A stretch of DNA of 64,000 nucleotides from Streptomyces sp. NBC_01231 (GTDB lineage: Bacteria; Actinomycetota; Actinomycetes; Streptomycetales; Streptomycetaceae): positions 10,974,001-11,038,000 of the forward strand of contig CP108521.1 of assembly GCA_035999765.1 (NCBI GenBank), in the 5' to 3' direction. The translations under genes were made by a program, and so were the position numbers. Shown one piece after another: positions 15,989 to 49,083 of the stretch. The notes under the pieces are model-generated. The model ran no database searches. It was given only the letters and a program-made list of their open reading frames with translations, and was not told the origin of the DNA. How positions within the stretch are numbered: position 1 is the first letter of the stretch; the number at the start of each line of letters is the position of its first letter.

Positions 15989-16390
15989 TCAGAGCGTCCC
16001 GGGAGGGTGCGGGACCACCGAGTCGTTCTGGCTGTCCCACACCCAGATCTCCGAATCCCGCCACAGCTTCGGATAGTCCTTGCGAGGGAGGGCCCCCGGT
16101 TTCTCCGGCTTGCTCGTCTCCACCAGGGATGGCCGCCACTTCTCGTCGCCGATCAGAATGGCGCGCACTGCGCCAAGTTTGACGGTGCCTTTCTGGGAAG
16201 GCAGGCGCCACTCCCTCTCATGCATCCACGTCGAGCCCGCTCCGACACGTACGGCCCAGTGCGCCATCCCAACGTTCTTGAAGTACTCATATACCTGGTC
16301 TGGTACGTACGCGCCCTCACCGCTGTGGCGTAGCTGGTGGTGCTGCTTAATGATCTTGATTTTGGCCTGCTGTTGTTCAGCTGTACTGAG
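15989..16390 (-). pseudogene. C-terminal part of an unidentified protein
   Basis: The open minus-strand frame ends GTL-stop at 15989. It reads upstream through HEREWRLPSQKGTVKLGAV, then VPDQVYEYFKNVGMAHWAV, to at least ANTPLSTAEQQQAKIKIIK near 16390. The EREWR-x-P motif followed by strands and a WRDSEIWVWD tail is typical of full-length proteins of unknown function, yet no start codon or N-terminal domain is evident. The upstream end lies next to the tniQ-side boundary of the CRISPR/transposition region, so insertion may have cut this gene. Confidence 0.45.
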
Positions 16391-16587
16391 CGGTGTGTTC
16401 GCCCTGTCGGGGCAGCCGGTGTGGGGCTGGTGGGTCGGTGACGCGTGGTATGTGGGCTGAGCTGGCTGTTTGTGCTGCGCAGTGATGCTGGGTGTGGTGG
16501 CGGTTTTTGCGCAGGGTAGTTGGCGCGCCTATAGGTGCCGGTGTTGTCGGCCGGTCTTGTGCGGGTCGGGGCGGCGTGTGGGTTGGT

Positions 16588-17520
16588 TCAGTGGGTGGTG
16601 AGGCGTTTCCAGAGCAGGTCGTGGTCGGCGGGTGCGAGGTGGGGGAGTTGGAGGCGGCCGGCGAGTTGGTGGAGGAAGGCGGTCTGCTGTGTGCGTGTCA
16701 GGGGGTTGGGGGGCAGGCGGTCGAGGGCCGCGGCGAGGGTGAGGGTTTCGGGATAGGTGATCAGTTCGCGGCAGGTCAGGGTGGGAGAGGCCGGGCCTGG
16801 CGACGTGCGGGGGTTGGCGGCGGTGAGCCGGTGCAGGCGTGTGTGCCAGCGTTCGTGTACGTGCTGTTGGTGGTCGTACCAGCGTGTCGTGATCGTCGAT
16901 GCCCAGCTCAGGGAGGTCGGTGTCGCCGGGCGGCGTGCGCGAAGGTGGGCTTGGGTGAGTTCGGGGACGGCTCGGATGTCGAGGGGCGCGGGATGCCGGG
17001 GGTCGCTGGAGGCCTGCTGGTGGCGGGTGCAGATCATGATCCGGGGCAGGCCCGGCGGCGGGTGGATCCACGCGGAGGCTGCCGTGTGCGGGCTGCGGCG
17101 GATGGTGCATGCGGTGCACGCCGGCAGCGGCTGCAGGGCGGTCTCGACCGCGTGCCATTGGGCGGTGGCCGTGCCGTGCGCGCCGGTGTTGGCCGACGAG
17201 GGTGCGGGCGGGCGCAGGTGGGGCAGGGCGCGGGTGAGGTGCGTGAGGGGGATGCGTGTGAAGCCGGACAGGCGGCGGGCGGCTTCGGCGCTGAGGCGGA
17301 TCTCGGCGGCGGGCGTGGCGTTCTCGGTGCCGGTGACGGTGATGCAGAGACCGTCGAGGAGCTGGGCGGGGCTGAGGCGGTAGGCGGCGGCGAGACGGGT
17401 GAGGTAGGAGGCGGTGGCCTCGCCGGGCAGCGGCCGTACGCGTAGCGGGCCGGGCACGGATGGCCACATGGTGGCGGCCCGCACCGGGGGCGATGGCCTG
17501 GTTGTGGGCGGGGAGGTCAC
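16588..17520 (-). CDS. tniQ: TniQ-family transposition target-selection protein
   Basis: 310 residues from the GTG that overlaps the tniB stop as GTGA; the in-frame ATG at 17469 would give 293. The TniQ hallmark PLPGEATASYLTRLAAAYRL lies near the N-terminus, and a CTACTIRRS...CTRHQQA segment follows, the zinc-binding region of TniQ/TnsD proteins. TniQ/TnsD proteins choose insertion sites, and in CRISPR-associated transposons TniQ binds Cascade to direct the transposase. It is last in a leftward run with tniB. Whether this short TniQ serves Cascade or a fixed attachment site cannot be read from sequence. Confidence 0.85.
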   Translation of the reverse strand: MTSPPTTRPSPPVRAATMWPSVPGPLRVRPLPGEATASYLTRLAAAYRLSPAQLLDGLCITVTGTENATPAAEIRLSAEAARRLSGFTRIPLTHLTRALPHLRPPAPSSANTGAHGTATAQWHAVETALQPLPACTACTIRRSPHTAASAWIHPPPGLPRIMICTRHQQASSDPRHPAPLDIRAVPELTQAHLRARRPATPTSLSWASTITTRWYDHQQHVHERWHTRLHRLTAANPRTSPGPASPTLTCRELITYPETLTLAAALDRLPPNPLTRTQQTAFLHQLAGRLQLPHLAPADHDLLWKRLTTH

Positions 17521-18551
17521 CGGCTGCTGGTGCGGGTGCGTCGGCGGGTGGGGTTGCGGGGCCGGTAGTGCTCTTCGGCGAGGTGGTCGAGCGCGATGCC
17601 GTCCAGGAGTGTCTTGGTGATGCGTTCGCTGCTGTCGAGGATGGCTTCGATGGCGGCTTGGCGGATCAGGCGGGAGAGGCTGCCGATCCGTCCGGCGGTC
17701 CGCTCGTGCAGGTAGGGGGCCAGCTTCGGCAGGCTGCCCGCGCGGTGGGCGTGCAGGTCGAGGGCCTGCTCGAGGGAGGCGATCAGTTCCCGGAACGGTT
17801 CCCGCTTGCCGGCGCGTGCGGGCAGCGCCCCGCAGTCGATCAGGGAGGCGCGCCCGGCCAGCTGCGCGCCGCGCACCCCGGTGAACACGGCGCTGCCGGT
17901 GACGTCGATGCCCGCGTAGACGAACGTGGCCCGCACGCGCTCGGTGAGGTCTTTGAGCCAGTCGGCAGCCTCGGCGCCGCTGGAGGTGCGCGGGTTGAGC
18001 CGGTGGATCTCGTCGATCAGCACCAGCTTGACCCCGGCCGCGGCGTAGGTGTGGCAGACGGCGGTGGTGATCTGCGTGGTGGTCATGCGGGTGGTGACGG
18101 GGATGCCGAGGTAGCGGGCGAACTCCCCGGCCAGTGTCTTGGCGGTGGCGCCGGGCGGCACCAGCACGTAGGCGACGGGCACGCTGTCGTCGCCGGGTTG
18201 GGCGCGGCGGGTGTGGGCGAGGTGGCAGGTTCGGCCGACTTCGAGCAGTGCGGTCGTTTTGCCGGTTGTGGCCGGCCCGGTGACGATCAGGGACGGGCGT
18301 GCCGTGACGCTCTGGTGGCGGCCGAGGATCATCAGGGTGCGCACACTGCGCGAGAGGGTTTCGATGGCCGGGGTGCGCACGGTGACGAACTGTGAGTGGT
18401 AGGCCAGGCGTTCCTCCGGCGAGCGGGGTGCCTGGCCCGGCTGCGGCGGTGTGGGCGGTGCGGCGTGGGCGAACCGGGCGAAGGCGTCGAAGGTGGTGAC
18501 TGCCCCTGCGGATGTCTCCTCGGCGGGGGGCGTGGTGTCGGGGCTTCTCAC
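17517..18551 (-). CDS. tniB: TniB/TnsC-like AAA+ ATPase (left copy)
   Basis: 344 residues. The P-loop is GPATTGKTTALLEVG, Walker B is LVLIDEIHRLNP, and downstream GIDVTGSAVFTGVRGAQLAG and RIGSLSRLIRQAA match sensor and lid regions of TniB ATPases. This regulator bridges target selector and transposase and forms ATP-dependent filaments on DNA. Its GTG start overlaps the stop of the upstream small ORF by GTGA, and its stop overlaps tniQ in the same way, so the three frames appear translationally coupled. It is clearly different from the second ATPase at 30288-31097. Confidence 0.88.
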   Translation of the reverse strand: MRSPDTTPPAEETSAGAVTTFDAFARFAHAAPPTPPQPGQAPRSPEERLAYHSQFVTVRTPAIETLSRSVRTLMILGRHQSVTARPSLIVTGPATTGKTTALLEVGRTCHLAHTRRAQPGDDSVPVAYVLVPPGATAKTLAGEFARYLGIPVTTRMTTTQITTAVCHTYAAAGVKLVLIDEIHRLNPRTSSGAEAADWLKDLTERVRATFVYAGIDVTGSAVFTGVRGAQLAGRASLIDCGALPARAGKREPFRELIASLEQALDLHAHRAGSLPKLAPYLHERTAGRIGSLSRLIRQAAIEAILDSSERITKTLLDGIALDHLAEEHYRPRNPTRRRTRTSSR

Positions 18552-18823
18552 CAGTGTTCGGCCTCCTCGAAGGCGTTGTACAGCGCGTATCGGCCCGCGG
18601 GCGGGGAGAGTTCATCGCTGTCGGCAAGATTGCCGTCAGCGTCAGGGGCGTGGGTGTCGACGGCGTCGGGACTGTCCTTGGCCTCCGCGTCGTCATCCGC
18701 CGTCTGTGGGCTCGCCGCTCCCGCCGCCGCTGGGGCGGGTGTGCCGTGGCCGGTCAGGGGGCGGCTGCGGCGCAGGACCTGGTCGGTGCTGACTCTCACG
18801 GTCCTGTCTCGTGAAGTTCTCAC
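18548..18823 (-). pseudogene. tniA: ORF coupled to tniB, possible tniA C-terminal remnant
   Basis: A frame ending ...YALYNAFEEAEHW-stop, whose TGA overlaps the tniB start. It contains RTSRDRTVRVSTDQVLRRS and an Ala/Asp-rich linker. The position directly before tniB with a GTGA overlap is where tniA normally sits in tniA-tniB-tniQ transposons, and the low-complexity end is compatible with a transposase tail. The DDE core is absent; the open frame extends upstream only to about 18930. I infer a truncated tniA mainly from position, so this remains tentative. Confidence 0.4.
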
Positions 18824-19177
18824 CCAGCTGTCATTCTCGATGAGTACCAGGAGCGTCTGTATGCAGGGGAAGTGGGGGAGTTGCTCCTGACATTGGACGA
18901 GAATGACTGACGCATGGCTATGAGAATTGCCTGTTCAGCTCCAGGAGAATCACAATACGAGGGCGGCTGTGACCTGCGTCTTTGCTCTATAGGTGGTCCC
19001 CAAGTATGGCCTCCACTCGATTTCGCGCCGGGTTGTGGGTGCCGCCCCGCCATGACGGCTCCCTATCGGTCGGCATGCTGAGCTGGCGGATAGGGATGGC
19101 CTCGGCGAACTTGGCCAGGTTGTTGCCGAACCCGCGTCAGCCTCGCGCGCTAGTCCTGCGACGACGAAGATTGAAGT
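18824..19177. other. gene-free stretch left of the CRISPR array
   Basis: No convincing gene. The minus strand at about 18990-19150 reads NNLAKFAEAIPIRQLSM, which could be a fragment of another protein. If the array is transcribed leftward, this is its trailer end; an isolated atypical repeat or guide, as some CRISPR-associated transposons carry, was not recognisable here. Confidence 0.35.
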
Positions 19178-20291
19178 TCCGTGTCCCCCGCTCGCGCGGG
19201 CTTACCTCAAGTGTGAACCGATGCTGGCGTCACGGATCGAGTCACTCCCGCTCGCGCGGGCTCTACCGCGGCGGCTGCGGTGCGGACGCTCTTGAATCCG
19301 GTCCACTTCCGAGCACGGGCGCTGCCTGCACCCCGACTCCGAGGTCTGGCTCACCGGCGAGTCACTCCCGCTCGCGCGGGCTCTCCAGGAACGTGCGGGG
19401 CCGTTCGGCCAGGGCGGTCGAGTCACTCCCGCTCACGCGGGCTCCAACTTCACCTCGACTCAGGGGACCTTGCCCCGGTTAGTTACTCCTGCTTGCGCGG
19501 GCTCTGCAACGCGGCGGTCACCGTCCTGGACAGGAAGTCTGGGTCACTCCCGCTCGTGTAGGCGCTACCGGAATGTCGGGCGGATCGTACGCCCGGATGG
19601 CGCGTCACTCCCGCTCGCGCGGGCTCTACGTCCTCGAACACACCACCGAGGACTGGTACCACGCGTCACTCCTGCTCGCAGAGGCTCCACGGCGGGCTGC
19701 GCTGCCGGCCGGATCTCGGCCTTCGAAAGCACTCCAGCCCAGCGCGGGCCGTACCCCTGCGTCTAGAGGGTCAGAAGGCCGAGTCCCTCTCGCGCGGGCT
19801 CTACGTCCACCTCAACCCCCACGAGGTCCGCCAGATCGAGTCATCCCCGCTCGCGCGGGCTCTAACGGAAGCCGATTGCCTCCCAGAGGGCGGCGATCGA
19901 GTCATCCCCGCTTGCGCGGGCTTGACGTGGTGGTGTTGCCAACCGAGTCCCGGCTTCGAGCCTACTCCAGCCGTGTGCGGGCTGTGCCCTTGTGTCTGGA
20001 GACAGAGGCGAGGGAGCGGAGTTGCTCCCGCTCGCGCGGGATTTACCCCAAGTTCGCCCGGCGCGACGGCTTCGGTCTATGGGCCAGGCCCGCCCCTGCG
20101 GGCTCTACCGCCGTGCGTTACCGCCTGAGCTGCGCGACCGCGCGTCATTCCCGCTCGCGCAGGCTCTACGTGAGCGCGGAGTACTGAACCTCGAAGGCCA
20201 CCGAGTCACTCCCGCTCGCGCGGGCTCTACCTGGAGCTGGCCACCGCCACCCGGGCAGCGGGCGCGTCACTCCCGCTCGCGCGGGCTCTAC
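19178..20291 (-). CRISPR. type I-E-like CRISPR array, about 19 repeats, several degenerate
   Basis: Repeats recur every 60-61 bp. In plus orientation the core is GTCACTCCCGCTCGCGCGGG followed by CTCTAC; on the minus strand the 29-nt unit has the I-E layout with a CCCGC-GCGA-GCGGG stem and an 8-9 nt 3' handle ending GTGACTCG. That suggests leftward transcription from a leader at 20292-20480. Cores start near 19181, 19241, 19301, 19361, 19422, 19482, 19543, 19604, 19665, 19728, 19783, 19840, 19901, 19961, 20021, 20083, 20144, 20205 and 20266. Units at 19301, 19728, 19783, 19961 and 20083 are heavily degenerate or shortened. Spacers are about 32 nt and all different. The two repeats next to cas3 are perfect. 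Confidence 0.95.
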
Positions 20292-20480
20292 CCTTCTTGA
20301 CCTGGGCGCTCTGGGGAATTTTGCCAGTCATTTGCTCGCGACCGGCTACGAAAATGATGCCACATCAGAGGTTGAGTCCGTAGGAGATGTACGGGTAGAG
20401 CGTGGATTTTAGCGGGCGCGAGGCTGATTGCTCTGTTTTTGGGTGATCATGTTATCGCGGGTTCCAGGAGGTGGCAGCGT
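20292..20480. promoter_or_regulatory. probable CRISPR leader and cas operon promoter
   Basis: This 189-bp spacer lies between the best-preserved end of the array and cas3 and is AT-richer than its surroundings, with runs such as GGGGAATTTTGCC and GAAAATGATGCC. It should hold the divergent promoters for pre-crRNA (minus) and the cas operon (plus). AGGAGG at 20466-20471 is the cas3 ribosome-binding site. I could not fix -10/-35 boxes with confidence. Confidence 0.5.
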
Positions 20481-23357
20481 GTGGAGATGGGAGCTGTTGA
20501 GGACGCCCGGTACGACGGTGTTAACCGTCGTCCCTGCGGGAAGTTCGATCGTGCAACGCGGAGGGTGTATTCGCTGCTGTTCCACTTGATCGATGTGGGT
20601 GCGGTGGCGGCGGTGCTGTGGGACCGGTTCCTGACCCCGAGCCAACGTCAGGTCATCAGCGCCGGGCTCAACGTCTCGCAGGAGCACGCGCGTTCGCTGG
20701 TGTCTTTCCTGGCTGCCATGCATGACATCGGAAAGCTGATTCCGAGTTGGCAGTCCTTTGAGTCCTTAGTACGCATACGGCTGGGGGAGGACCTGCTGGC
20801 GGACATGGGGCTGGTGGTGCACGTGCCGCACGCGCGCGCGTCGATGCATGCGGGACTTCATCTGCTGGGCGAGCTGGGATTCGCCGTTGGCGGTAACGAC
20901 AGTCCCGCCGTCCGTGCTGCTCAGTCTTTGGGCGGGCACCACGGCCGGTTCCTGCAACTCGACGTGGAGGGGGCAGCATCCGCTCACCGGGTGCAGGCCA
21001 CCCTGGGCGGGCCTGTGTGGCAGGACCTGCGCCGCCGCTACACCCGGCTGCTGTGGCACCTGTTCGGTGTCGACGAGGCTCCGGATCGGATGTCGGTCGA
21101 GGCTGCGGTGCTGATCACGGGTTTGACGATGGTTGCCGACCGTGTCGCGAGCCAGCGCCGGTACTGGGTGCCCAACGCGGACACTCCGTCCTTCGGGGCT
21201 GCCGAGCACTACAGTCACGCCCGCAGGCAGGCCGAGGATGAGGTCGAGCGGCTCGGCCTTACGCGCTTCGCTTTGGACCGGGTCCCGTTCACTACCGCCC
21301 ACCCGGGGCTAGAGGAACCCAACGCTTTTCAGGCTTCCGTGATGGAGGAGTTGCCGCGGCTGGTCGCCGAGCGGGGGAGTGGCATCGCGGTGGTCACGGA
21401 TGCCATGGGGGCGGGAAAGAGCGTGACCGCCCTGGAGATGGCGCGGATCTTCAACGAGCACTGTGGCACTCAGGGGGTGATGTGGCTGCTCCCGGCCACC
21501 GCCGCCGCCGACCAGGCCTACGAGGTCCTGGACCGGTACGTGCGCGCCCACCGGCCCGAGTACGCCCCCGTGACGCTGGTGCGCCACCACAGCGACCTCA
21601 ACGAGGCCTACACCGGCCGAAGTCTGTCCCCGGCGGACATGTCCGTTCTGGACGGACCATCCGACGACCCGTTCACCGACGACCCGGACGATCTTGCGGC
21701 CGGCGACGAGACGGAGTCCGGCCCGGGCGCTGCCGGCCCTGACCGATGGCTGCGCGGAGGGGACAACGCGCTCCTGGCCCAGTACACCGTCTCCACCACC
21801 GACCAGGCACAGATGGCTGTCCTCCCCGTCCGCTACAGCGCGCTGCGCCTGCTGGCCCTGTCGGGCAAGACAGTCGTGGTCGACGAAGCCCACGCGCTGG
21901 ACCCGTTCAGCCAGATCCAGTTGCTGCGCCTGCTGCACTGGCTGGGAGCCCTGAACTGCCCGGTTGTCCTGCTGTCGGCGACGATGCCTGCGTCCACCGC
22001 CACCGAGCTGGTACGGGCCTACCTGTCCGGAGCCGGCCAAACTGGTCTCCACGGTGCCTCGTTCGCCCCCCGCTACCCCGGGTGGCTGTTCGCGGACGCG
22101 GCAACCGCCACCGCCCACCGCGTGTCCGAACCGGCCCAGGACCGGCAAAGGGCCGCCCAGCGCAGGACCGCTCACACCCGCATCCGCCCGGTCACTTACC
22201 GGCGCCTCGAACAGCCCGACCGCACCGTCGACCCGGGAGAGCGCCTGGCCATGATCGCCGACACGCTCCAGCCGGTGGTCCGTCACGGCGGATGCGCGGC
22301 CGTGGTGTGCGCGACCGTCGCCGACGCGCAGGACACTTACCAGTACTTGCGCCGCACATGGACCGGCCCACCGCACGATCTGGTCCTCGTCCACGCCCGG
22401 GTCCGGGGGTGGCGGCGGCAGAGCACGCTGCGAGACCTCCGCCACCGGCTGGGGCCCACCGGCACGCGCCCGGCACGCCTCGTCTTCGTCACCACCAGCC
22501 TCCTCGACATGAGCCTGGACATTGATGTCGACCTGATGGTCAGCGATCTCGCTTCTCTGGCACGCCTGCTGCAGCGCCTGGGGCGCCTGGGCCGCTTCTC
22601 CCGTCTGTGGGCCGGGCAGGACCGCCGCCCCGCCTGGTGGGACCGTGACAACAGCCCGACGTTGACGGTGCTGAACCCAGTCAACTCCCGCGGCGCGACC
22701 GCTCTGCCGCCCGGGTGGGGCACGGTCGAGCCCGCCGTCACCCTCCACGAAACCGCCCGGCTCCTCCTCACCCTGGAGAAGGAAACCCTTGTTGTACCCG
22801 ACGATGTCCAGGCCCTCGTCGAACAGGTCCACGGTGTCACCTCCGGTTTCGCGGGGGAAACGACGCGTCTGCAGCAGATGGCAGCCACCCACCAGACCCG
22901 CACCAGTCGCCAGCAGCAGCTCAGCGCGATCCACCTGGCACCCCCGGCGATACGGGTCTCTTCCCTGGCGGACCTGCACCGTCAGCACCTCACCACCGCC
23001 CAGGCGGCCACCCGGCCCGGCGTCCTGCCCCGCCGCCTGCTGCCCTGCTACCGCGGCCCCGAGGGCACCCTGACCCTCGACGCAGCCGGCCTTCTCCCGC
23101 TCCCGGACCAGGAACACCTCAGCCGACGCCACCTGCGCAGCATCCTGGAACACACACTGCCTGTCCCGGCCGCCTGGGTCACCCGCGCTTCCGACCAGCA
23201 TCAGCCGCCCGAAAGCTGGAAGCAGCATCCTCTTCTCGCCGACACCGTGCTGCTGCCCACTGATTCTTCAACACGGGAGAGTGAACAGCGTTTCGGCCAT
23301 CACTGGCTCCGCATGGACGAAGAACTCGGCCTCCTGCACCGCAAAGACCATCAATGA
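20481..23357 (+). CDS. cas3: Cas3 nuclease-helicase (type I-E)
   Basis: 958 residues from the GTG set by AGGAGG nine bases upstream. The HD nuclease residues are all present: His in LLFHLIDVG, HD in AAMHDIGKLIPSWQ, His in SMHAGLHLLGEL and HH in LGGHHGRF. The SF2 helicase follows with motif I DAMGAGKSVTALEMA, DEAH in VVVDEAHALDP, SAT in LLSATMPA, and QRLGRLGR for motif VI. Motif V reads TSLLDMSLDID where EQSLDID is usual. Length and motif order fit a functional Cas3, which degrades DNA opened by Cascade. CRISPR-guided transposons usually lack Cas3, so its presence beside transposition genes is unusual. First gene of the operon. Confidence 0.95.
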   Translation: MEMGAVEDARYDGVNRRPCGKFDRATRRVYSLLFHLIDVGAVAAVLWDRFLTPSQRQVISAGLNVSQEHARSLVSFLAAMHDIGKLIPSWQSFESLVRIRLGEDLLADMGLVVHVPHARASMHAGLHLLGELGFAVGGNDSPAVRAAQSLGGHHGRFLQLDVEGAASAHRVQATLGGPVWQDLRRRYTRLLWHLFGVDEAPDRMSVEAAVLITGLTMVADRVASQRRYWVPNADTPSFGAAEHYSHARRQAEDEVERLGLTRFALDRVPFTTAHPGLEEPNAFQASVMEELPRLVAERGSGIAVVTDAMGAGKSVTALEMARIFNEHCGTQGVMWLLPATAAADQAYEVLDRYVRAHRPEYAPVTLVRHHSDLNEAYTGRSLSPADMSVLDGPSDDPFTDDPDDLAAGDETESGPGAAGPDRWLRGGDNALLAQYTVSTTDQAQMAVLPVRYSALRLLALSGKTVVVDEAHALDPFSQIQLLRLLHWLGALNCPVVLLSATMPASTATELVRAYLSGAGQTGLHGASFAPRYPGWLFADAATATAHRVSEPAQDRQRAAQRRTAHTRIRPVTYRRLEQPDRTVDPGERLAMIADTLQPVVRHGGCAAVVCATVADAQDTYQYLRRTWTGPPHDLVLVHARVRGWRRQSTLRDLRHRLGPTGTRPARLVFVTTSLLDMSLDIDVDLMVSDLASLARLLQRLGRLGRFSRLWAGQDRRPAWWDRDNSPTLTVLNPVNSRGATALPPGWGTVEPAVTLHETARLLLTLEKETLVVPDDVQALVEQVHGVTSGFAGETTRLQQMAATHQTRTSRQQQLSAIHLAPPAIRVSSLADLHRQHLTTAQAATRPGVLPRRLLPCYRGPEGTLTLDAAGLLPLPDQEHLSRRHLRSILEHTLPVPAAWVTRASDQHQPPESWKQHPLLADTVLLPTDSSTRESEQRFGHHWLRMDEELGLLHRKDHQ

Positions 23358-23519
23358 TCACTGCACGTAATACTGAGGGCCGAAAGCATCACGCCACCCT
23401 TCGATAGTCGGACTTTCTCACCGGTCGCGAAGCGCTGTGGCGACATGATTCGCTGTGCCGCACACCACCGAACGCCCGGTCGTACATCGCACACCACTGC
23501 GCCCCACAAGGGCGCTGCG

Positions 23520-25196
23520 ATGTCCCCTGCACAGCACCGGCCGCGCTCGGCCCGGCCGCCGCGTTACCCCACAGCAGCAAACCACCCGAGAACATGCCCT
23601 GGTCCCGGCTGCCCGCACCCCGCCTCCTCACGTTCCTCCCTATTTCCGGAAGACACCCCCTTGCCCTCGTTATCCCCGCCAGCCACGTTCAGCGCAGCCG
23701 ACAGCCCCTGGATCGACGTCCGCTTAGGTCACCAGTACGACCAAGTGGGCCTGCGGACCCTGCTCCTGGATGCCCACCGCATCGACGATCTCGCCCTGCC
23801 CCACCCGCCGGCAGCCTCAGCACTGCTGCGGGTCGCGGTCGCCATCACCGCCCGGATCACCGGCCTGGACGACCCCGAACTCACAGCCTCCCAGTGGAAC
23901 GCTCTGCGCCGCCGCTGCCTGGCTAAGGGCCGCTTCGACCCGGACGCCGTCCACGCCTACTTCGACCAGCACGGCTGGGACGTCTTCGACCCGGTCCGGC
24001 CCTGGCTGCAGGACCCCTCGCTGCGCACCCAGTGCCCCCACAGCACCGGCATCAACGTCTTCGTGCCCGGGCGCCCCGCCGGCAACAACCTGACCTGGTT
24101 CAGCCCGCACAGCCACCACACCGCCGAACCCGTTCCCACCGCCGAGGCCCTGCAGATCCTGCTCATCCACCACTACTACGGGCGTTCCGGTAAAGGCACC
24201 CCCCGCACCCTGGACGGTGCCACCAGCATGAAGCAGACCAGCGGGCCCCTGCGCTCCAGCGTCTCCTTCCACCCTCTGGGCCGCACCCTGCACGAAACGC
24301 TCCTCACCGGTGTCCCCGCCTTCACCGGCGACGAGCAGCCACCTGGCGCCGACGCCTGCCCGTGGGAAGAACCCGCGCCGCCCGACCCGCAGGCCCCGCC
24401 CCGCCCGCCGACCTGGCCCGGTCGGCAACTGACCGGACTGAGCCGGCACGCGATCCTCCTCGTGCCGGGCCAGGGCGGCACCATCGTCACCGACGCCTAC
24501 ATCACTTGGGCCACCCAGCAGCCCAAGCAGATCACCACCGACCCTTACCTCGCCTACCGATTCACCCCCGAACGCAAGAACGTTGCCCGGCGCCGCACCA
24601 TCCGCCGCGCCGACGCGTCCCGCGCCTGGTGGCGCGACCTGGAGACACTGCTCCTGGCTCCGGATGAGCACGGCACGCACCGCCGGCCAGCCATCTTCGA
24701 TACCCTCAACGACCTTCCCGAATCCGTGCGGCGCAGCCTGCGGATCCGCGTCCACGGATTCGACCAGGACGGCAAGGCCATCGACCGGCAGTGGTACACC
24801 GCCCTTACCCCGCCCCTGCTGAACTGGACCCAAGAACACGACCCGGTCAAAGCCCAGCGCATCGCCGAGTGCTGCCGGGAAGCCGAACAAGCCGCACACC
24901 GGCTGGCGACCGTCGCCAAACAGGCCTGGGACACCGTCACCCGCAGCCGCACCACGCAGCCCCCCTGGACAGGCAGGGCTCTGACCCGATACTGGCCAAG
25001 GGCCGAGACGGTGTTCTGGCGGCTTCTGGACGAGCCCGACACCGGGGCACCCACCGCCTTCGCGGCCGCAGCCGCGGCCGCTCTGCGCGAGGTCACCGAA
25101 GCCGCCCGGATCCGTCACCCCTCCGCGGGCCGCGCCGTTGCCCATGCAGTCAGGGACCTCTACCGCCAGCCCTCAACACCCCGGAAGGCTGCCTGA
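23520..25196 (+). CDS. cas8e: Cas8e (Cse1/CasA), Cascade large subunit
   Basis: About 558 residues from the ATG at 23520; a TTG near 23660 with GGAAG upstream would start closer to the family norm, so the start is uncertain. The Cse1 N-terminal pattern is present as SPWIDVRLGHQYDQVGLRTL, followed by LLLDAHRIDDL. GINVFVPGRPAGNNLTW and TSGPLRSSVSFHPLGRTLHE resemble the Streptomyces Cse1 core, and a C-terminal helical bundle with an Ala-rich stretch completes it. Cse1 recognises the PAM and recruits Cas3 in type I-E. Its stop overlaps the cas11 start as TGATG. Confidence 0.92.
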   Translation: MSPAQHRPRSARPPRYPTAANHPRTCPGPGCPHPASSRSSLFPEDTPLPSLSPPATFSAADSPWIDVRLGHQYDQVGLRTLLLDAHRIDDLALPHPPAASALLRVAVAITARITGLDDPELTASQWNALRRRCLAKGRFDPDAVHAYFDQHGWDVFDPVRPWLQDPSLRTQCPHSTGINVFVPGRPAGNNLTWFSPHSHHTAEPVPTAEALQILLIHHYYGRSGKGTPRTLDGATSMKQTSGPLRSSVSFHPLGRTLHETLLTGVPAFTGDEQPPGADACPWEEPAPPDPQAPPRPPTWPGRQLTGLSRHAILLVPGQGGTIVTDAYITWATQQPKQITTDPYLAYRFTPERKNVARRRTIRRADASRAWWRDLETLLLAPDEHGTHRRPAIFDTLNDLPESVRRSLRIRVHGFDQDGKAIDRQWYTALTPPLLNWTQEHDPVKAQRIAECCREAEQAAHRLATVAKQAWDTVTRSRTTQPPWTGRALTRYWPRAETVFWRLLDEPDTGAPTAFAAAAAAALREVTEAARIRHPSAGRAVAHAVRDLYRQPSTPRKAA

Positions 25197-25840
25197 TGCC
25201 CACCGCAGCCGAACACCGCGCCTCCTGCGACGCGTTCGTCGCCCACGTCCACCTCCTATGCGCTGAGCCCGGCGTCCGCGTCCGCCTCAGCAGAGGCAGG
25301 GGCCGGCCCGTCGAGGAATGCGCCCCCATGGACCGCTACCTGGCCCGGCGCACCGCACACCGCGCCGGACGCCGCGCCTACTACACCGTCGCGAGCCTCA
25401 TCGCGACAGCCGGGCCCCAGGCCCACACCCCGGGCGTGCGCCCCGACCCGGACGACGACGCCGGCCTCATGACCCTGGGAGACGATCCCGGAGTCCGCCT
25501 CGTCGCCCCCGTCGAACCGGCCCCCGCGCCATCGCCGCCGGATCCGGCGGCCTGGTTCGCCAGGCCGAACTTCGGCGCCACCCTCGCCACCGCCGTACAC
25601 CAAGCCGGCCACGGAGCGGAGCGCACCGAGGATCTCCTGAGCGTCCTGACCCGCCTCAGCGACGACCAGTTGCACCGCCGCCTGCCTGCACCTGTCACAC
25701 AGCTGCTGAAGGACGGCATCACCCCCGACTGGGGTGTTCTCCTCCACGACCTGGTGCAACGCCCTCACCAGCGTGACCAGGTCGGATTGCGCTGGCGCGA
25801 CGCCTTCTACCTCGCCACCCCCGAACCTCGGCGCTTCTGA
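25196..25840 (+). CDS. cas11: Cas11 (Cse2/CasB), Cascade small subunit
   Basis: 214 residues starting MPTAAEHRASCDAFVAHVHL. It is helical throughout with the Cse2 signature features: an early MDRYLARRTAHRAGRRAYYT basic helix, a central disordered linker rich in Pro, and a C-terminal bundle including TEDLLSVLTRLSDDQL and GVLLHDLVQ. Small-subunit dimers stabilise the R-loop. The usual Cse2 length is 160-220 residues. ATG overlaps the cas8e stop by one base, indicating coupling. A 256-bp gap with no gene separates it from cas7, wider than the other operon junctions. Confidence 0.88.
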   Translation: MPTAAEHRASCDAFVAHVHLLCAEPGVRVRLSRGRGRPVEECAPMDRYLARRTAHRAGRRAYYTVASLIATAGPQAHTPGVRPDPDDDAGLMTLGDDPGVRLVAPVEPAPAPSPPDPAAWFARPNFGATLATAVHQAGHGAERTEDLLSVLTRLSDDQLHRRLPAPVTQLLKDGITPDWGVLLHDLVQRPHQRDQVGLRWRDAFYLATPEPRRF

Positions 25841-26096
25841 CACCCCCGCACCAACCGGCCCCGCCCCTCCCTGCCGGCGCTCCCCACCGGGAACCATCCC
25901 GGTGCAGGCCGCCCGGCGGCCCCCGCCCCGGAGCCGTCCGGTGCCCCTCGGACAACGCCCGACCGCCCAGGCCGCCCGACTCCCAGACTGGCCGGCGGCA
26001 CACAGACCGGTCCCGGGCCTTTCACGCAGCCCACGGCACCCCGTACCCCGCGGGCCGTATCAGCGCCATGCCCGCCCCAGTGAAAGAAGCACACCC

Positions 26097-27260
26097 ATGC
26101 ACACCCCGGCACGATTTCTCGACCTGCACATCCTCCACCCTGTGACCGCGGCGAACCTCAACCGCGACGCGGACGGCGATCCCAAGACCATCTCCTTCGG
26201 GAACGCGATCCGGGCCCTCGTCTCGCCCCAGGCATGGAAGCGCCCCATCCGCCTCAACGTCGAACAGGACCTGGGCGAGCACGCCGCCCGCACCCGCATG
26301 GTGCCGCCCCTCGTCGCCCGGATACTGCAGGAAGCCCAGTGGCCCGAGGACCTCGCCGCGTTCGCCTCGGCACAGATCGTCCACTCGGCCAAGAAGGGCG
26401 GCCTGAAGCACAACGACAAGGAGGGCTACCGCACCCAGGCCATGCTCTTCCTCCCCACGGACGTCATCGACGACATTGTCGCCCTGTGCGAAAAGCACCG
26501 CACCGAACTAGAAGAAGCTTTCGCCGCCCACACACCCAAGAAGAAGATCGACGCGGTCCTGCCCGCCAAGGACCTCGCCGCGCACCTGACCCGCCGCACC
26601 GCGAGTATCAACCTGTTCGGGCGGATGCTCGCCGAACTGTCCGCCGGCCACGTCGAAGCAGCCGTTCAGATGGCCCCCGCCTTCTCCGTGCATCAAAGTG
26701 ATCCGCAGCCAGACTTCTTCACGACAGTGGAGGACCTGCCCCAGGACGGAGACCCTGGCAGCGCCCATCTCCAGACCGCGTTCCTGACCACCAGCCTCTT
26801 CTACCGCTTCGCGACCATCAACATCACTGACCTCCACCACAACCTCGGATCCGGCGCTCCCGCCGACACGGTCAACGACCTCGTCGAGCTCTTCGTCCGG
26901 CACTTCATCCTGAGCATGCCGGGCGGCAAGAAGACGTCCACCGCACCGCACACCGTCCCCGACCTCGTCCACTACGCCGTCCGCGACCGCCGCTCCGTGT
27001 CCTACGGCGCCGCCTTCGAACAGCCAGTCAAAGCCGCCCCTCAAGGCGGCTACACCGCACCCGCCCGCCAAGCGCTCGCCGACTACGCCGCCACCATCAC
27101 CCGCCTGCTCGGCACCCGCCACCTTGTCGCCCATGGACATACCGGGACCTCCGCCAAGCCCGTCAAGGACCTCGGCACCCGCCACACGTCCTTCGACGAC
27201 CTCGCCGCCGCCTGCGCCACCGCCGCGACCGCCGCTCTCACCCCCGCAGGCCGGCCGTGA
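26097..27260 (+). CDS. cas7e: Cas7e (Cse4/CasC), Cascade backbone
   Basis: 387 residues from the ATG preceded by GAAAGAAG. The start FLDLHILHPVTAANLNRDAD and the SFGNAIRALVSPQAWKRPIR segment (equivalent to SSQC/K and R-x-R patterns in CasC) are diagnostic of Cas7e. NLFGRMLAEL and QTAFLTTSLFYRFATINI follow, then a Gly/Lys-rich segment and a C-terminal RRM-like portion. Six copies of this subunit normally coat crRNA. Its stop overlaps the cas5e GTG by four bases. No truncation is seen. Confidence 0.93.
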   Translation: MHTPARFLDLHILHPVTAANLNRDADGDPKTISFGNAIRALVSPQAWKRPIRLNVEQDLGEHAARTRMVPPLVARILQEAQWPEDLAAFASAQIVHSAKKGGLKHNDKEGYRTQAMLFLPTDVIDDIVALCEKHRTELEEAFAAHTPKKKIDAVLPAKDLAAHLTRRTASINLFGRMLAELSAGHVEAAVQMAPAFSVHQSDPQPDFFTTVEDLPQDGDPGSAHLQTAFLTTSLFYRFATINITDLHHNLGSGAPADTVNDLVELFVRHFILSMPGGKKTSTAPHTVPDLVHYAVRDRRSVSYGAAFEQPVKAAPQGGYTAPARQALADYAATITRLLGTRHLVAHGHTGTSAKPVKDLGTRHTSFDDLAAACATAATAALTPAGRP

Positions 27261-28066
27261 CCGGCCTTGTCCTGCGCCTGGCAGGCCTGCTGCAGTCCTT
27301 CGGAGAACGCGGCGTCTTCCACTACCGCGACACGTGCGCCTTCCCCACCCGCTCCTCACTCATCGGCATGTTCGCCGCGGCCCAGGGCCGCCCCCGCGAA
27401 CACGCCCTCGCCCCCTACCCCCACCTGCAGGCACCGGGCGACGCCACCTCCCCGAGCCACCGCGACCTGACCCTCACCATCCGCGTCGACCAGCCCGGCA
27501 CCCTGTACCGCGACTTCCACACCGTCGGCGGCGGCCACCCCAAAGACCAGAGCCTCCCTACCGGTGACGGCACCCGGCGAAAGCTCTCCGCCTCCACGCT
27601 CGTCTCTCACCGCGACTACCTCACCGGCGCCGTCTTCACCGTCGCCGTCGAAGGACCCGAACTCCTCATCAGCCACATCGCCGAAACCCTCGAACGGCCC
27701 CGCTTCGGACTGTTCCTCGGCCGCCGCGTCTGCCTGCCCGACGAACCCCTCGTCCTCAACGCAGGCACCCCCGACCCCGTCGACGAACTCCTCACCCGCA
27801 CCCCCCTCACCCGTAACCCGCCCCCCGGCTCCACCGACACCCATGTGCCCACCACGTTCGTCTGGGAACACCCGCCCCCCGGAACCGACCCCACCACCCC
27901 ACCCGACCGGGAAAGTACCAGCGAACCCACCAACCTCGCCCGCCACGCCCGACGCCACCTGCCACGCCCCCTGTGGATGACCACCGAGCACCTGCCCGCC
28001 CACCTTTGCGCAGGACCCCGACCGATCGACGCCCTCACCATGTACGTGCACGGAGAACCCGCATGA
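27257..28066 (+). CDS. cas5e: Cas5e (CasD)
   Basis: 269 residues from the GTG overlapping the cas7e stop. The Cas5e signature is LVLRLAGLLQSFGERGVFHY with PTRSSLIGMFAAAQGR, followed by a beta-rich body with DFHTVGGGHPKDQ and RFGLFLGRRVCLPDEPL. Cas5e caps the 5' handle of crRNA in Cascade and contacts Cas8e. A Pro/Thr-rich insertion lies at about residues 190-225. The stop overlaps the cas6e ATG (ATGA). Confidence 0.92.
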   Translation: MTGLVLRLAGLLQSFGERGVFHYRDTCAFPTRSSLIGMFAAAQGRPREHALAPYPHLQAPGDATSPSHRDLTLTIRVDQPGTLYRDFHTVGGGHPKDQSLPTGDGTRRKLSASTLVSHRDYLTGAVFTVAVEGPELLISHIAETLERPRFGLFLGRRVCLPDEPLVLNAGTPDPVDELLTRTPLTRNPPPGSTDTHVPTTFVWEHPPPGTDPTTPPDRESTSEPTNLARHARRHLPRPLWMTTEHLPAHLCAGPRPIDALTMYVHGEPA

Positions 28067-28707
28067 CCAGCCTCACCCGCATCACCATCGACCCCCACCA
28101 CTCAGCGGCCAGAGCCGACCTCGCCGACGTCAACAGCCTCCACAAGACCCTCATGCGCCTGGTCCCCGACCAGGCCGGTCCCACCCCCCGGGCCACAGCC
28201 GGCCTGCTTTTCCGCACAGAACCCGGACCCGGACCCGTCCTTCTCGTGCAAACAGCCCACACACCCGACCTCACCGCCCTGCCCACCAGCTACGGCACAG
28301 CCCGCACCCTCGACCTCACCCCCCTGCTGAACACCCTCATCCCCGGGCGCACCATGCGCTACCGCATCACCGCCGCCCCCACCACGGCACTCTCCGCAGG
28401 CAATCCCACCCGCCACCCCGTCACCGGGAAACGCCGCGGCAAAATCACCCACCTCACCGGCGACGACGCCATCGCCTGGTGGCAACGCCGCGCCACAGAC
28501 GCCGGACTCGAACCCCTCACCATCTCCTCCCTCCCCAGGCCCTTCCCCCGCACCCACCTCGCACGCTCGGCCCCCTACTTCAGGCTGACCCAGTTCGACG
28601 GCTTCGCCCGCATCACCGACACCGGCCTCCTCACCCACGCACTGAAGAACGGCATCGGCAGGGCAAAGACCTACGGAGCCGGCCTTCTCTCACTCGCCCC
28701 CGCCTGA
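28063..28707 (+). CDS. cas6e: Cas6e (CasE) crRNA-processing nuclease
   Basis: 214 residues from the ATG in the ATGA overlap with cas5e. An N-terminal DVNSLHKTLMRLVPD helix carries the His expected for the Cas6e active site. The C-terminal Gly-rich loop is NGIGRAKTYGAGLLSLAP, the hallmark of Cas6 proteins, and FARITDTGLLTHALKNGIG precedes it. It cuts pre-crRNA at the base of the repeat stem; the CCCGC-GCGGG stem in the array is a suitable substrate. The transposase gene starts only 24 bp downstream, in the place where cas1 follows cas6e in ordinary type I-E loci. Confidence 0.92.
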   Translation: MTSLTRITIDPHHSAARADLADVNSLHKTLMRLVPDQAGPTPRATAGLLFRTEPGPGPVLLVQTAHTPDLTALPTSYGTARTLDLTPLLNTLIPGRTMRYRITAAPTTALSAGNPTRHPVTGKRRGKITHLTGDDAIAWWQRRATDAGLEPLTISSLPRPFPRTHLARSAPYFRLTQFDGFARITDTGLLTHALKNGIGRAKTYGAGLLSLAPA

Positions 28708-28731
28708 CCCCAACCAGAAAACACATCCGTC

Positions 28732-30291
28732 ATGCCACAAATCCCTGACCAGAACGCCCTGCGCGCTGCCGCCATCCACCGCCTCTACACCCTTGAGCAG
28801 TCAGAACGGCTCACTCGCTCCCGGCTCATCGGCGTTGCCGACGCCTTCGGCGTCGCCCCCCGCACCGTCGACCGCTGGCTCGCCAACGCCCGCGCCAACA
28901 ACGGCACCTACCAACCCCGAAGCCGACCCTGCTTCATCCTCACCCCGCTCATGCTCGACGCGGTTGCCCGCTGGCGCGGCAACGCCACCGCCGCATGGAG
29001 GGAACTACGCGCCGACGGCCACCCCGTCCCGTCCCTGCCCACCTTCCACCGCGCCGCGAACAGAGCCCTCACACCCGGAGTACGGGCCGGCCTCCGCGGC
29101 GGCGAGAAGGCCCGCCGACGCTATGACGTGTCCGGTGAACGCGACCGCCACCACCGCAACTACGCCTGGGAAACCGACCACGTCGAAGCCAGCGTCAAAG
29201 TCCGCATCGACGGCCACATCCGCAAACCATGGATCACCTTCTTCGTCGACTGCGCCACCTCAGCCATCTGCGGCCTCGCCATCAGCCCGCAACGCCCCAG
29301 CCGCGAAGGCGTCCTCGTCGCCATCCGCGACGCCGTCCTCATCGACGAACACCACGGGCCGTTCGGCGGCATCCCCACGTACGTGCGCGTCGACGGCGGC
29401 AAAGAGTTCCTGTGCGCCACAGTCAAGGAAGCACTCGGCGTCCTGGGATCCGAAATCATCGAACTGCCCCCCTTCAACCCCGAGGGCAAAGGCAACGTCG
29501 AAGCAGTCAACGGAGCCATCAAAAAGACACTGTTCGCCGGCATGCCCGGCTACACCCACGCACCCACCCTCCTCGGCGGTAAACCCGTCGACCCCGACCA
29601 ACCACTGCTCCACTTCGAAGCGTTCGTCGGCCGGGTCCTCGAATGGGTCCACTACTGGAACCACGAGAACACACCCAGGGGCCTGAAAGGCAAGACTCCC
29701 CGCCAAGCGTGGGACGCCGACCCCGCACTCATCGACACCGTCACCGCCGAAGACCTCCACACCTACACCCTCGAACGCCACGGCAAGCCCCTGGTCATCA
29801 ACAACGGTGGCGTCCGCTGGCACCAGCGCAACTACATCGCCGACTGGATGCACGGCCGCGTCGGCGAAAAGGTAGACCTGCGCTACCTCCCCCACCACGA
29901 CCACCGCGTCGAGCTCTACGACCCACAAACCGGCCGCCACCTCGGCGCCGCCGTCATGGCCGGACAAGCGACCCGTGAACAGACACTCAGCCTCAAACGA
30001 GCCAGGCGACGCGAAGCCGACCGCCTGCGCGCCCAGCTGAAGAAGGCCGAGAAGAACCGCAACACCCGCTACGCCGCCGCAACCCGCCCTGCCCCGCCCG
30101 TGCCCCTGGACGTGATGCCCGAGGAAGAGGCCATCGAGCACCTGCGGGCCCTCGACGGCTTCGACCCGGCAGCAGAGGCACTGCCCGACCTCATCCAACT
30201 ACCCGAACCCGACGCCGAATGGACCCTTCCCCTCAACCCCAACACCGCACCCCCACCCCAGCCGCAGACACCCCCCGAGGACCAGCCGTGA
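28732..30291 (+). CDS. tniA: TniA/TnsB-like DDE transposase in the cas operon
   Basis: 519 residues. An N-terminal HTH (LIGVADAFGVAPRTVDRWLA) is followed by an rve/DDE integrase core: WETDHVEASV (first Asp), YVRVDGGKEFL (second Asp) and GKGNVEAVNGAIKK (Glu). Exactly 35 residues separate the second Asp from the Glu, so the triad looks intact. A Mu-type C-terminal beta-barrel region (YIADWMHGRVGEKVDLRYL) and a Lys/Arg coiled segment follow. Strand-transfer activity is expected. It lies 24 bp after cas6e with no terminator between, and its stop overlaps the next ATPase start as GTGA, so cas genes and transposase are probably one transcript. Confidence 0.9.
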   Translation: MPQIPDQNALRAAAIHRLYTLEQSERLTRSRLIGVADAFGVAPRTVDRWLANARANNGTYQPRSRPCFILTPLMLDAVARWRGNATAAWRELRADGHPVPSLPTFHRAANRALTPGVRAGLRGGEKARRRYDVSGERDRHHRNYAWETDHVEASVKVRIDGHIRKPWITFFVDCATSAICGLAISPQRPSREGVLVAIRDAVLIDEHHGPFGGIPTYVRVDGGKEFLCATVKEALGVLGSEIIELPPFNPEGKGNVEAVNGAIKKTLFAGMPGYTHAPTLLGGKPVDPDQPLLHFEAFVGRVLEWVHYWNHENTPRGLKGKTPRQAWDADPALIDTVTAEDLHTYTLERHGKPLVINNGGVRWHQRNYIADWMHGRVGEKVDLRYLPHHDHRVELYDPQTGRHLGAAVMAGQATREQTLSLKRARRREADRLRAQLKKAEKNRNTRYAAATRPAPPVPLDVMPEEEAIEHLRALDGFDPAAEALPDLIQLPEPDAEWTLPLNPNTAPPPQPQTPPEDQP

Positions 30292-31097
30292 GCACCCCCA
30301 CCACCTCGCCCCGCCCCAGCCAGCTCCCGCCACCCAGCCAGGACCACTACCTGGGTCTCACCGGAGCCAACGCCATGGCCACCAAAGCCGTAGCCGAAAC
30401 CGAAGCCCGCATCCTCAAAGCCATCAAGCACAACGCCATGGTCTGCATCCACGGACACGTTGGCCTCGGCAAAACCTTCGCCGTCCACACCGTCCTACGC
30501 CGCCGCGCCCCCGAAACCACCGTCCGGCTGCGCTACAACAACGGCGCCAACATGAACGAAATCCGAACCCAGCTCTGGCGCCGCCTCGACCTGCCGGGAG
30601 AACCACCGCAGTCCGTCGGTCCCTGCGACCAGCAGATCCAAGACGCACTCGAAGCAGAGCCACGCATCCTGCTCATCGATGAAGTGCAAGGACTCGGGAC
30701 GAAGGCCCTGGAATACTTCCGCAACCTGTGGGGCGACGACGCACGCCGAGCAGCCATCATCTTCGTCGGCAGCGGCAACGCCCGGCAGAAGATCCTCAAC
30801 AACCCCGCCCTGCACTCCCGAATCCTCGACTGGTACCAGTTCAGCCCCCTCACACCGACCGAAGTCCAGGCCATCATCCCCGCCTACCAGCAGACCTGGG
30901 CCGGCACGCAGCCCGAACTGATCCTCTACGCCGATGACATGGCCGGCCACGGATCGTTCCGAAACTGGGCAAGAATCACCCTCCTCCTCCACGACGCACT
31001 CGAGGAGAACCCCGACCTCGCCCTCAGCAAGAACCTCATCCGCTGGGTACTCAGCCGCATCGACCCCACCACCCGCCACACCCCGCAACGCAGCTGA
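30288..31097 (+). CDS. tniB: TnsC/TniB-like AAA+ ATPase (right copy)
   Basis: 269 residues from the GTG overlapping the transposase stop. Walker A is GHVGLGKTFAVHTVL, Walker B is RILLIDEVQGLG, the sensor-1 region is AIIFVGSGNARQKI, and LHSRILDWYQFSPLTPTEVQ resembles MuB/TnsC-type transposition ATPases. It is shorter than, and unlike, the left TniB at 17517, so the locus has two ATPases of different lineage. It presumably activates the adjacent transposase and recruits it to targets. It is the last gene of the operon; no terminator hairpin was seen before the next gene fragment. Confidence 0.85.
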   Translation: MSTPTTSPRPSQLPPPSQDHYLGLTGANAMATKAVAETEARILKAIKHNAMVCIHGHVGLGKTFAVHTVLRRRAPETTVRLRYNNGANMNEIRTQLWRRLDLPGEPPQSVGPCDQQIQDALEAEPRILLIDEVQGLGTKALEYFRNLWGDDARRAAIIFVGSGNARQKILNNPALHSRILDWYQFSPLTPTEVQAIIPAYQQTWAGTQPELILYADDMAGHGSFRNWARITLLLHDALEENPDLALSKNLIRWVLSRIDPTTRHTPQRS

Positions 31098-46757: not shown

Positions 46758-49083
46758 TTAACCCCACTGCATGCCCAGCTTCCGCAGTGCGTCGAGCTGT
46801 TCCTGGGTGAGTTTGTCGCGCCTCGATTTGGTGTTGGAGACCCATACGCCCAGCTTGATGACCACAGGCGCTGGCTCGCCGTCGACCGCGATCTCTTCAG
46901 CGTGGCCTCGCGGGACAGGCCGGTGAGCGCCTTCCCGCTCCACCCACTGGGCGAGGGCCGCAAGTCCGCGCTGGAACGCCTGCTGCGCCTTGCCCGGGCC
47001 CTTCGTTGCACGCGTAGCCGCAGGGGCGGGAGACGGCGCCTGGACGGGCTTCACGCCCAGCTGGGACAGTCGTTCTTGCTGCTCTCCCGACAGCAGTTTC
47101 CAGGTGGCCGGCTGTTTCTGTCGTTGGAGCCATCGTCCGAGGTCGTCGCCGTCCATGAGTACGCCGGGTGCGATGTCGGGCAGGACACCGCCGGGTTCGT
47201 CCTCGGCGAGGTGGGCGAGGACGCGGTGGTGGCGTTGCCAGTCGAGCGGCCAGGGGCAGTTCCAGTCCGGGTCGATCGCCGTCAGCTGCTGCGCGCTCCG
47301 CCGTCCGCTCTGCGTCCTTTCCGAGGCCGCCTTTCCGGCGGAGGTTGGCCATGTGCTGCCCGACCGGCACCATCGCCTCGCCCTCGCCCCAGACCTGGTC
47401 CTGGCGGGGTGCGAGGTGGCCCGTGGCGCGCCGGTAGGACCGGAGCGCGGCGAGCTTGGACTCCCAGGCCTCTTCGCCGGGTTCCCAGACCATGCCGGCC
47501 TCAGGGGCGTCCAGCAGGGTCTTGCGCCGCTCCTCGAGCTCGCCGGCCCGTAGCGCCTTCCGCTGCTGGTGCACCCACCGCCCGAGCGGGAAGTCCTTGG
47601 TGACGCCCACCGTCGTCTCGGTGTCGTAGGGGACGGCGTAGAGGCCGGTGATGTGGTGCTTCTTCCGCCAGCGGAGCAGGGCCTGGTAGCCCTCGAGCCA
47701 GACCAGGGATTCGGGCCGGTAGACCCGGGTGCGCAGGAAGGCCGCGATGGTCGCGGCGTCGCGCGGGGTGGAGAAGTGCAGCAGCGCCGAATCGGCGGCG
47801 GCCTGCGCGTCGTCCTGGTCCCGGTCCTCGCCGTCGCCCTCGCCGCCGGTTCCGACGATCTGGCCGTCCTCATCGCGTCGGATGTGCACTGTGCGCTGTC
47901 CGTGGGTGAGGGCGCGGGAGGCGAGCTGCTCGACGAGGCGTTCATCGTGCGAGCGCAGGCCCTGAAGGACGGCTACGAGGGGGCGGAACGAGGCGGAGGC
48001 GACCATGTCGGTGGGGTCCTCGCCGGGCTCTAGGAAGACCGGCACGATGATGCGGGCGACCTTGGTGGTGCCGTCGCGGTTGAGCCGGAGGGCGCGGCCG
48101 ATGTTCTGGACGATCTCGACCTGGGAGCCGCGGGTGTCGGCGAAGCAGACGGCTTCCACGCCCCGTTCGCCGGTGATGTCGACGCCTTCCCCGAGGACGC
48201 GGCAGCTTGCGAGGAAGGCGCGGTGGACTCGGCGGCCGGCAGCGTCGATGCCGCCTGCGAACTGCCGCAGGGCTTCCCGCCGTTCACTGACGAGGTGGTC
48301 GCCGCACAGCCACGCCGACCACACGCGGTCCGGGGGTACGTGGCGGCCGACCTCGAGCTCGTAGAACTCGGCGTCGATCGACGACTTCGGGAGCCGGTCC
48401 GCGGCTGCCAGGTCGTCGTCGGAGGCGTCGTTGATGTACAGCTGCCCGGCGGTCTCCGGCATCTTCTCCGCGAAGGCTGCGGCCTCTTCCACCTTCTGAT
48501 GGAAGGTCATCACCGTACGCAGGTTGTACGCGGCGGCGTGCTCCAGGAGCGCGGTCTGCAGGAGCGCCAGGCGCCGGCCGCGCTGGGCCTCCTCCGATTC
48601 CCCGAGGGCGGGGGAGGGGTCGTGGATCTCCAGGACGTCGATCTCGAATCCGGCGAGGATCTTGCGCTCGATCGCCTCCGAGAGTCCCAACTCCGCTAGC
48701 CACGCGCCGTACGTCCCGTCTGGGTCGTCGGTCATGCTCGCGATCTCCGCCTCTTGGCCGTTCGCGCCCTTGTGCGGCCGGGGGGAGGCGAGGATGCGCG
48801 GGGTGGCGGTGAGGTAGAGGCGGAAGTCGGCGGGGATGCGGGCGTTGTCGTGAATCACCGCCCACGGCCGGCCGAGATCACCGGCGGTTCCGTGGGCCTC
48901 ATCCACGATCGCGAGGTCGAATCCTGCCATCTGCTGTCCGTAGAGCCGTTCTCCGCCCGCCAGAGCGGCCTCCAGCGGCCCACGAACCTTCCGCTGGCCC
49001 TCCGGTGCGTCGACGTCCTCGCGGTCCACGAGAGAGGCGTAGGTGGCGAATGTGAGGTCGCACCGTTGTTGCGGTGACCACAT
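46758..49083 (-). pseudogene. DEAD/DEAH helicase with helicase-associated domains, truncated and frameshifted
   Basis: Begins at about 49083 within the helicase core: DLTFATYASLVDRED, LAIVDEAHGTAG (DEAH), LYLTATPRIL (SAT motif), then the second RecA domain with GEGVDITGERG and QNIGRALRLN. Motif I and the N-terminus are missing. Helicase-associated WL-type repeats follow. Near 47310 the frame shifts (DAERTAERA in one frame, AQQLTAIDPDWNCPW in the other) and continues to a TAA at 46758. Without Walker A and with a frame break it is a pseudogene of the large Streptomyces helicase family. Confidence 0.85.

Follow-up and report, generated by a model that had tools for sequence, protein, structure and literature searches.

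Does a type I-E clustered regularly interspaced short palindromic repeats (CRISPR) operon that runs directly into transposase genes guide transposition, destroy rival DNA, or do both? We address this for a locus of Streptomyces sp. NBC_01231, analysed in a window of 64,000 nucleotides (bases 10,974,001-11,038,000 of an 11.34-Mb single-contig genome). Behind a CRISPR array, the plus strand carries a compact operon in the order cas3-cas8e-cas11-cas7e-cas5e-cas6e-tniA-tniB. Transposon end, array, cas genes and tniA-tniB form one co-inherited unit; it has a recurrent end motif and spacers with assignable targets and a protospacer-adjacent motif (PAM), five interrupted genes were recognised at its junctions, and one of its sublineages has lost the HD nuclease residues of Cas3. 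The reading that we develop, which we give about an even chance of being right, is that of a telomeric-type transposon (variant I-E5) that would steer TniAB insertion and Cas3 attack onto rival telomeres, taking the chromosome end.

An earlier note on this DNA had described the cas gene set, a 24-bp gap to a DDE transposase with a D-D-35-E triad, and a TnsC/TniB-like ATPase with overlapping stop and start; Pfam searches and inspection of residues confirmed all of these. Pfam domains were found in cas3 (20487..23357; HD, helicase and Cas3_C, with the HD and helicase residues present in the motif columns), cas8e or cse1 (23445..25196, exact start uncertain; Cse1, PF09481, E 2e-63, with Cse1 matches in the PDB), cas7e (26097..27260; CT1975, PF09344, E 3e-87), cas5e (27257..28066; PF09704) and cas6e (28063..28707; PF08798). 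The match of cas11 or cse2 (25196..25840) to PF09485 is weak, 22.3 bits vs a cut-off of 24.6, and its position is conserved across loci. The gene tniA (28732..30291), 24 bp after cas6e, encodes a TnsB-like transposase (PF09299, Mu-transpos_C; TnsB structures 8rdu and 7svw, E 2e-14) with the triad D149, D221 and E257, 35 residues separating the last two. The product of tniB (30288..31097) is a MuB/TnsC-like AAA+ ATPase (AAA_22) with Walker A and B present and a weak PDB match (E 5e-4) to the MuB-type 'ATP-dependent target DNA activator B'. Stops and starts overlap at cas8e-cas11, cas7e-cas5e, cas5e-cas6e and tniA-tniB, the last as GTGA. Corrected from the sequence, the probable starts are 20487 for cas3, 25196 for cas11, 26097 for cas7e and a GTG at 30288 for tniB.

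Co-inheritance and the end of the element

TniA matches were found in 114 of 392 Streptomyces genomes, the window's own included. In named genomes, 17 TniA loci were identified, and the named relatives are nearly all Streptomyces. When the window proteins were mapped on fetched loci, the order cas3...cas6e-tniA-tniB was found in 18 loci from 17 genomes, a count that includes the window and both copies in genome G383; an extra cas6e-tniA-tniB piece lies at a contig edge in G097. In a tree of 80 TniA sequences, built from tblastn segments with stops written as X, the cas-linked sequences (n=19) form one clade with support of 100/100, present in 200 of 200 bootstrap trees. Their catalytic triad is conserved with a single exception, E257 to R in the right-hand G383 copy, which is decayed and has broken frames. 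TniA distances correlate with those of Cas7e (Mantel r 0.93) and Cas8e (0.92), values that none of 2000 permutations reached. The homologous tniA-tniB family also occurs without cas genes. Given the conserved order, the single clade and the correlated distances, the simplest account is a single capture of the CRISPR genes by a TniAB element family, which then retained them. Homologous loci with tniA and tniB apart from the cas genes had been named in the note as a refutation; the outcome favoured the unit, as the 18 loci preserve the junction.

The motif TGCTGACTCTC begins at 18787 in the window. Allowing one mismatch, it is present at 11 junctions, across the array from the cas genes. It marks the interior end of the element, which runs as TGCTGACTCTCA... 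on the plus strand (18787..19174), with 98% identity to the Streptomyces dysideae locus over 388 bp and different flanks. Likely TniA-binding repeats lie within this end. With the motifs used, no end was found in G091, G300, G068 or G161. NBC_01446 (L141, reverse complement) has two ends in the same orientation, at 3099 and 3958, 859 bp apart, as if one copy had landed in or beside another.

The interrupted gene was recognised at five of the 11 junctions. It is a TtrA-like helicase gene in G118, a rival tniB in the left G383 copy and an ISL3 transposase gene in the right one, with 77% DNA identity to the ISL3-family gene directly downstream of tniB in the window (31496-33097). In S. dysideae the flank at the same element end is the telomere gene tap, whose family (NF047542) was confirmed on L065. 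In the window it is tniA of a second transposon, TniABQ. Positions 16320-18786 share 83.5% DNA identity with the TniABQ element of L078, and the C-terminal remnant of its tniA (18551..18786, minus strand) aligns with residues 624-704 of the 704-residue L078 TniA. On the same strand follow tniB2 (17517..18551; TniB, PF05621, E 4e-16) and tniQ (about 16588..17524; TniQ, PF06527, E 7e-8), both also supported by identity to L078; a 702-residue open reading frame at tniQ is mainly antisense readthrough of tniB2. The earlier note had placed this tniB-tniQ pair across the array, which is correct as to position, and had counted it with the I-E system. The TniABQ homology stops at 18786 and the element begins at 18787; the pair belongs to a separate TniABQ transposon that the element cut. 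Thus the note's transposon-linked interpretation stands for the co-inherited Cascade-Cas3/tniA-tniB unit and falls for TniB-TniQ.

In variant I-E5 a single specific end is paired with the telomere as the opposite boundary; here the specific end was identified, and the other boundary was not found in the window. The two G383 element ends are about 92.2 kb (left copy) and 22.7 kb (right copy) away from the ends of the contig. The window holds a TtrA-like terminal helicase remnant (46764..49056, minus strand; 77-89% identical in protein sequence to the helicase of L106, with Helicase associated domains) and, on the opposite side of the element, a tpg-like gene remnant (12895-13134, plus strand). 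These flanking remnants suggest that this region was once a chromosome end. The window also encodes a patatin-like phospholipase with DUF3376 (13225-15753) and a large AAA/NACHT-type ATPase with WD40 repeats (53613-58232).

The array and the targets of its spacers

The array (19179..20292, minus strand) is degenerate, with 16 recognisable 29-nt repeats at a period of about 61 and three wide gaps. Between it and cas3 lies a probable leader (20293..20486, minus strand), to which a similar block is seen by eye in several arrays. Since this leader-like block adjoins the repeat on the cas3 side, again by eye, transcription of the array probably uses the minus strand and runs in the direction opposite to cas3. 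Distal spacers are common to the window and S. dysideae arrays, and leader-side spacers differ. No recognisable array was found within 1.75 kb in S. tanashiensis. In G118 (L147+L034) 22 kb separates the element end from cas3; 56 repeats were found there, and the array itself contains repeated leader-like blocks, which would fit duplication of entire leader-array units.

We collected 175 spacers from 14 arrays, keeping those between repeats 55-67 bp apart and dropping those across wider gaps; 12 come from the window, and some are common to related arrays. They were compared with 64 fetched TniA loci lacking cas genes (1.17 Mb), a set chosen around TniA and so enriched in tniA and tniB. At 84% identity or more, 41 of the 175 match these loci, with no match for reversed or shuffled spacers in scripted controls. 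AA occupies positions -2 and -1 in 27 of the 32 distinct matched spacers (background 2.2%) and 114 of the 175 spacers start with G, on which grounds the PAM reads as AA(G), the same as in E. coli type I-E. With this AAG-type PAM and a full set of cas3, cas8e, cas11, cas7, cas5 and cas6e (Cas11 below its Pfam cut-off), the locus shows the effector genes and PAM of type I-E. For S. avermitilis, the PAM is cited as AAN in the relevant passage of PMC12231136. By gene, the 32 distinct matches comprise nine in TtrA-like helicase genes, eight in tniA or tniB, five in TniABQ genes, three in tap, two in tpg and five others, so that 27 fall within gene families making up 26% of the bases. TtrA and Tpg are names that we take to fit the matched genes; Tap rests on NF047542.

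Eighteen window spacers, six of them taken beside array gaps, match 69 of the 392 Streptomyces genomes; two of these, G118 and the genome that holds the window, are matched in arrays. Reversed spacers match none of the 392, in a control made by hand and one letter short (659/660); a null result of this kind, with no known match to set beside it, shows nothing by itself. Matches outside arrays were found for ten of the 18, one of them weak. On contigs longer than 5 Mb and of known length, 20 of 28 matches are no more than 100 kb from the nearest end, where a uniform distribution would give 0.65; this tally was made by hand, counts both copies of terminal repeats and drops G118, whose site is in an array. 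The eight more distant matches include weak ones (G368: 26/32, PAM AGC). CoiA-like nuclease genes are also targeted by window spacers. Among public records, the spacers have no phage match and 23 plasmid matches, all in Streptomyces; three are perfect (32/32), on linear records in genes for proteins with helicase-associated domains, with flanks GTA, GAA and GTA. A literature search found no report of the spacer targets, a result of little weight as the primary I-E5 papers lay outside its coverage.

Guided insertion and interference

We examined six positions of the Cas3 HD domain, presumably metal ligands. Of 17 readable Cas3 proteins, 13 retain these positions, that of the window among them; the G068 match is partial. 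Replacements affect five of the six in G028 and G263 (R, RE, MG) and four of the six in both G383 copies (G, Q preceding an unchanged D, CR); H137 is retained in all four. These proteins retain the Walker A, DEAH, SAT and QRxGR motifs, and long open Cas3 frames persist in G028, G263 and the left G383 copy. The TniA sequences of the four altered loci are sisters (100/98), and therefore one loss suffices. The sublineage has 34 spacers, among which matches to rival loci were found for 11 distinct ones, nine with AA. At the looser threshold of E <= 0.01, and with array matches included and no genome-wide control, the 34 match at least 224 of the 392 genomes. To judge from these residues, the sublineage appears to have lost its HD nuclease while keeping the helicase and rival-directed guides. 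Among the matches listed, a G263 spacer matches G091:C1 at 113393 and 10153225, both chromosome ends, at 94%; the right-hand match lies in the G091 array, and a second copy of that array may lie near the left end.

In the mechanism that we propose, Cascade carrying CRISPR RNA would bind the tniA, tniB, TtrA-like helicase, tap, tpg and TniABQ genes of rivals. Cas3 would then be recruited, to cut or, in the HD-dead members, only to unwind. TniB and TniA, linked to Cascade through some contact that does not involve TniQ, would insert the one specific end of the element; the distal rival end would be lost and the element would supply a new one. We infer guided insertion from three features: guides and recognised insertion sites belong for the most part to shared gene families, the nuclease residues are dispensable in one sublineage, and the cas and tni genes make up one operon. 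A bolder version, to which we give somewhat less than even chances, sees telomere-hunting transposons with TniQ-free TniAB insertion, in which the Cas3 of one sublineage would serve as a nuclease-dead integration helicase and the guides would mark ends for capture instead of destruction.

Several observations weigh against guided insertion at telomeres. Known CRISPR-associated transposons (CASTs) insert at a set distance from their target. Here, measured on homologs and not on true empty sites, no fixed distance or orientation relates the insertion point to a protospacer of the same array: the offsets are +157 in the window (PAM GTA), +764 and about -1090/-1019 in S. dysideae (with none in its closest homolog, L093), +468, +896 and -321 in G118, and +875 to +904 in the left G383 copy, and the homologs for S. 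sindenensis and the right G383 copy contain no own protospacer. Within retained flanks of up to 3 kb (1.2 kb in S. tanashiensis), none of 10 loci has a match of 25 or more identities to its own spacers. The element contains no TniQ. Six of the 11 junctions (S. sindenensis, S. tauricus, S. tanashiensis, both in NBC_01446, and G034) have no recognised interrupted gene, and four further matches to the end motif are unplaced (window 11211, G068 14700, G118 3169 and G034 8787 reverse). At present about 346 kb separates the window copy from the contig end, and a search of the terminal 20 kb at both ends of its genome found no tni, tap, tpg or TtrA-like gene. No match in the tested loci was found for 134 of the 175 spacers. 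Finally, insertion near ends could be favoured merely through loss of distal DNA.

The serious rival is interference only, in which an I-E nuclease destroys incoming rival telomeric transposons and linear plasmids while TniAB insertion is unguided. The intact HD positions in the window and in most readable Cas3 proteins suit it, as do the canonical AA(G) PAM and the variable insertion distance, and the 18 matches of window spacers to their own genome (E <= 1e-3) are all to the array itself. However, pure cutting leaves unexplained why the HD-less sublineage kept a long Cas3, its helicase and rival spacers, and the cas and tniAB genes share one operon and diverged together. We regard interference alone as a serious possibility, less likely than guided insertion. 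Guided insertion and interference may also coexist.

Weaker alternatives and known systems

A different role, which PMC12231136 attributes to Faure 2019 in its summary, is that TniA-TniB (TnsB-TnsC) replace Cas1-Cas2 in spacer acquisition. The locus has no cas1-cas2 adaptation genes, and a Cas1 search had no match in 15 of 17 genomes, with partial matches in the window's genome (one, G000:C1:3336178-3336474, 27.9 bits, profile 6-105) and in G394 (two pieces); leader-side spacers nevertheless differ between the window and S. dysideae. Against this, a transposon end beside the array, common to loci with different flanks, points to mobility, the tniAB family also occurs without cas genes, and Cas1-Cas2 could act in other hosts. 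We therefore judge an acquisition module improbable.

A TniQ-dependent Tn7-like CAST using the neighbouring TniB-TniQ, to which adjacency in the window lends some support, is far less probable still. In the window, tniQ is located beyond the end of the element, inside the transposon that the element cut; among nine other loci with 1.2-20 kb of flank, TniQ was seen beyond the end in S. dysideae only, about 8.5 kb out; and, in the loci searched, the stretch from the element end to tniB gave no TniQ match. TniQ was rejected as a component on this flank comparison, which refuted it as a conserved feature. Chance insertion of a transposon beside cas genes, for which nothing spoke, can be dismissed almost entirely, given 18 loci, one TniA clade and the co-divergence of TniA with Cas proteins.

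Like the Tn7-like CASTs (I-F3, I-B, I-D and V-K), the element pairs a CRISPR effector with TnsB/TnsC-like proteins. It differs from them, as we understand those systems, in lacking a TniQ/TnsD adaptor, in retaining Cas3 and in showing, on homologs, no fixed distance from its own protospacer. Streptomyces tniA-tniB elements without cas genes, many of them near chromosome ends, encode homologous TniA and TniB; their fetched stretches hold no cas genes, and the spacers studied here target tniA and tniB of these elements, among other genes.

The gene arrangement itself is already published. The passages of PMC12669027 on variant I-E5, which cite Hsieh 2025 Science, link it to telomeric transposons and describe no TniQ and an active HD domain. 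The window agrees in its I-E effectors and Cas3 beside tniA-tniB, the absence of TniQ/TnsD, the link to telomeric transposons and the intact HD residues; it differs from that description in its position about 346 kb inside the chromosome and in guides against rival telomere genes, and the HD-dead sublineage is an exception to the active HD domain given there. The Streptomycetaceae I-E loci of Faure 2019, as summarised in PMC12231136, share the gene order with tnsB-tnsC and the absence of cas1-cas2; that summary gives them no flanking cis-acting ends and an adaptation role, whereas an end motif is found here at 11 junctions. In the portions of PMC10293859, PMC13228271 and PMC11656645 reached by term look-ups, one citation was the sole trace of a type I-E telomeric account. 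The end motif, the spacer targets with their PAM, the interrupted genes and the HD-less sublineage are added here, and some of them may be reported in the primary I-E5 paper.

These results make the disagreement over TnsB-TnsC in Streptomyces I-E loci, spacer acquisition vs transposase, testable, and they provide candidates for the transposon end and for the guides, the latter with their PAM. If guided insertion is true, no known RNA-guided transposon would share this design, in which the guided transposase works without TniQ and the Cas3 helicase is kept. The findings also suggest a CRISPR-based contest over the ends of linear bacterial chromosomes.

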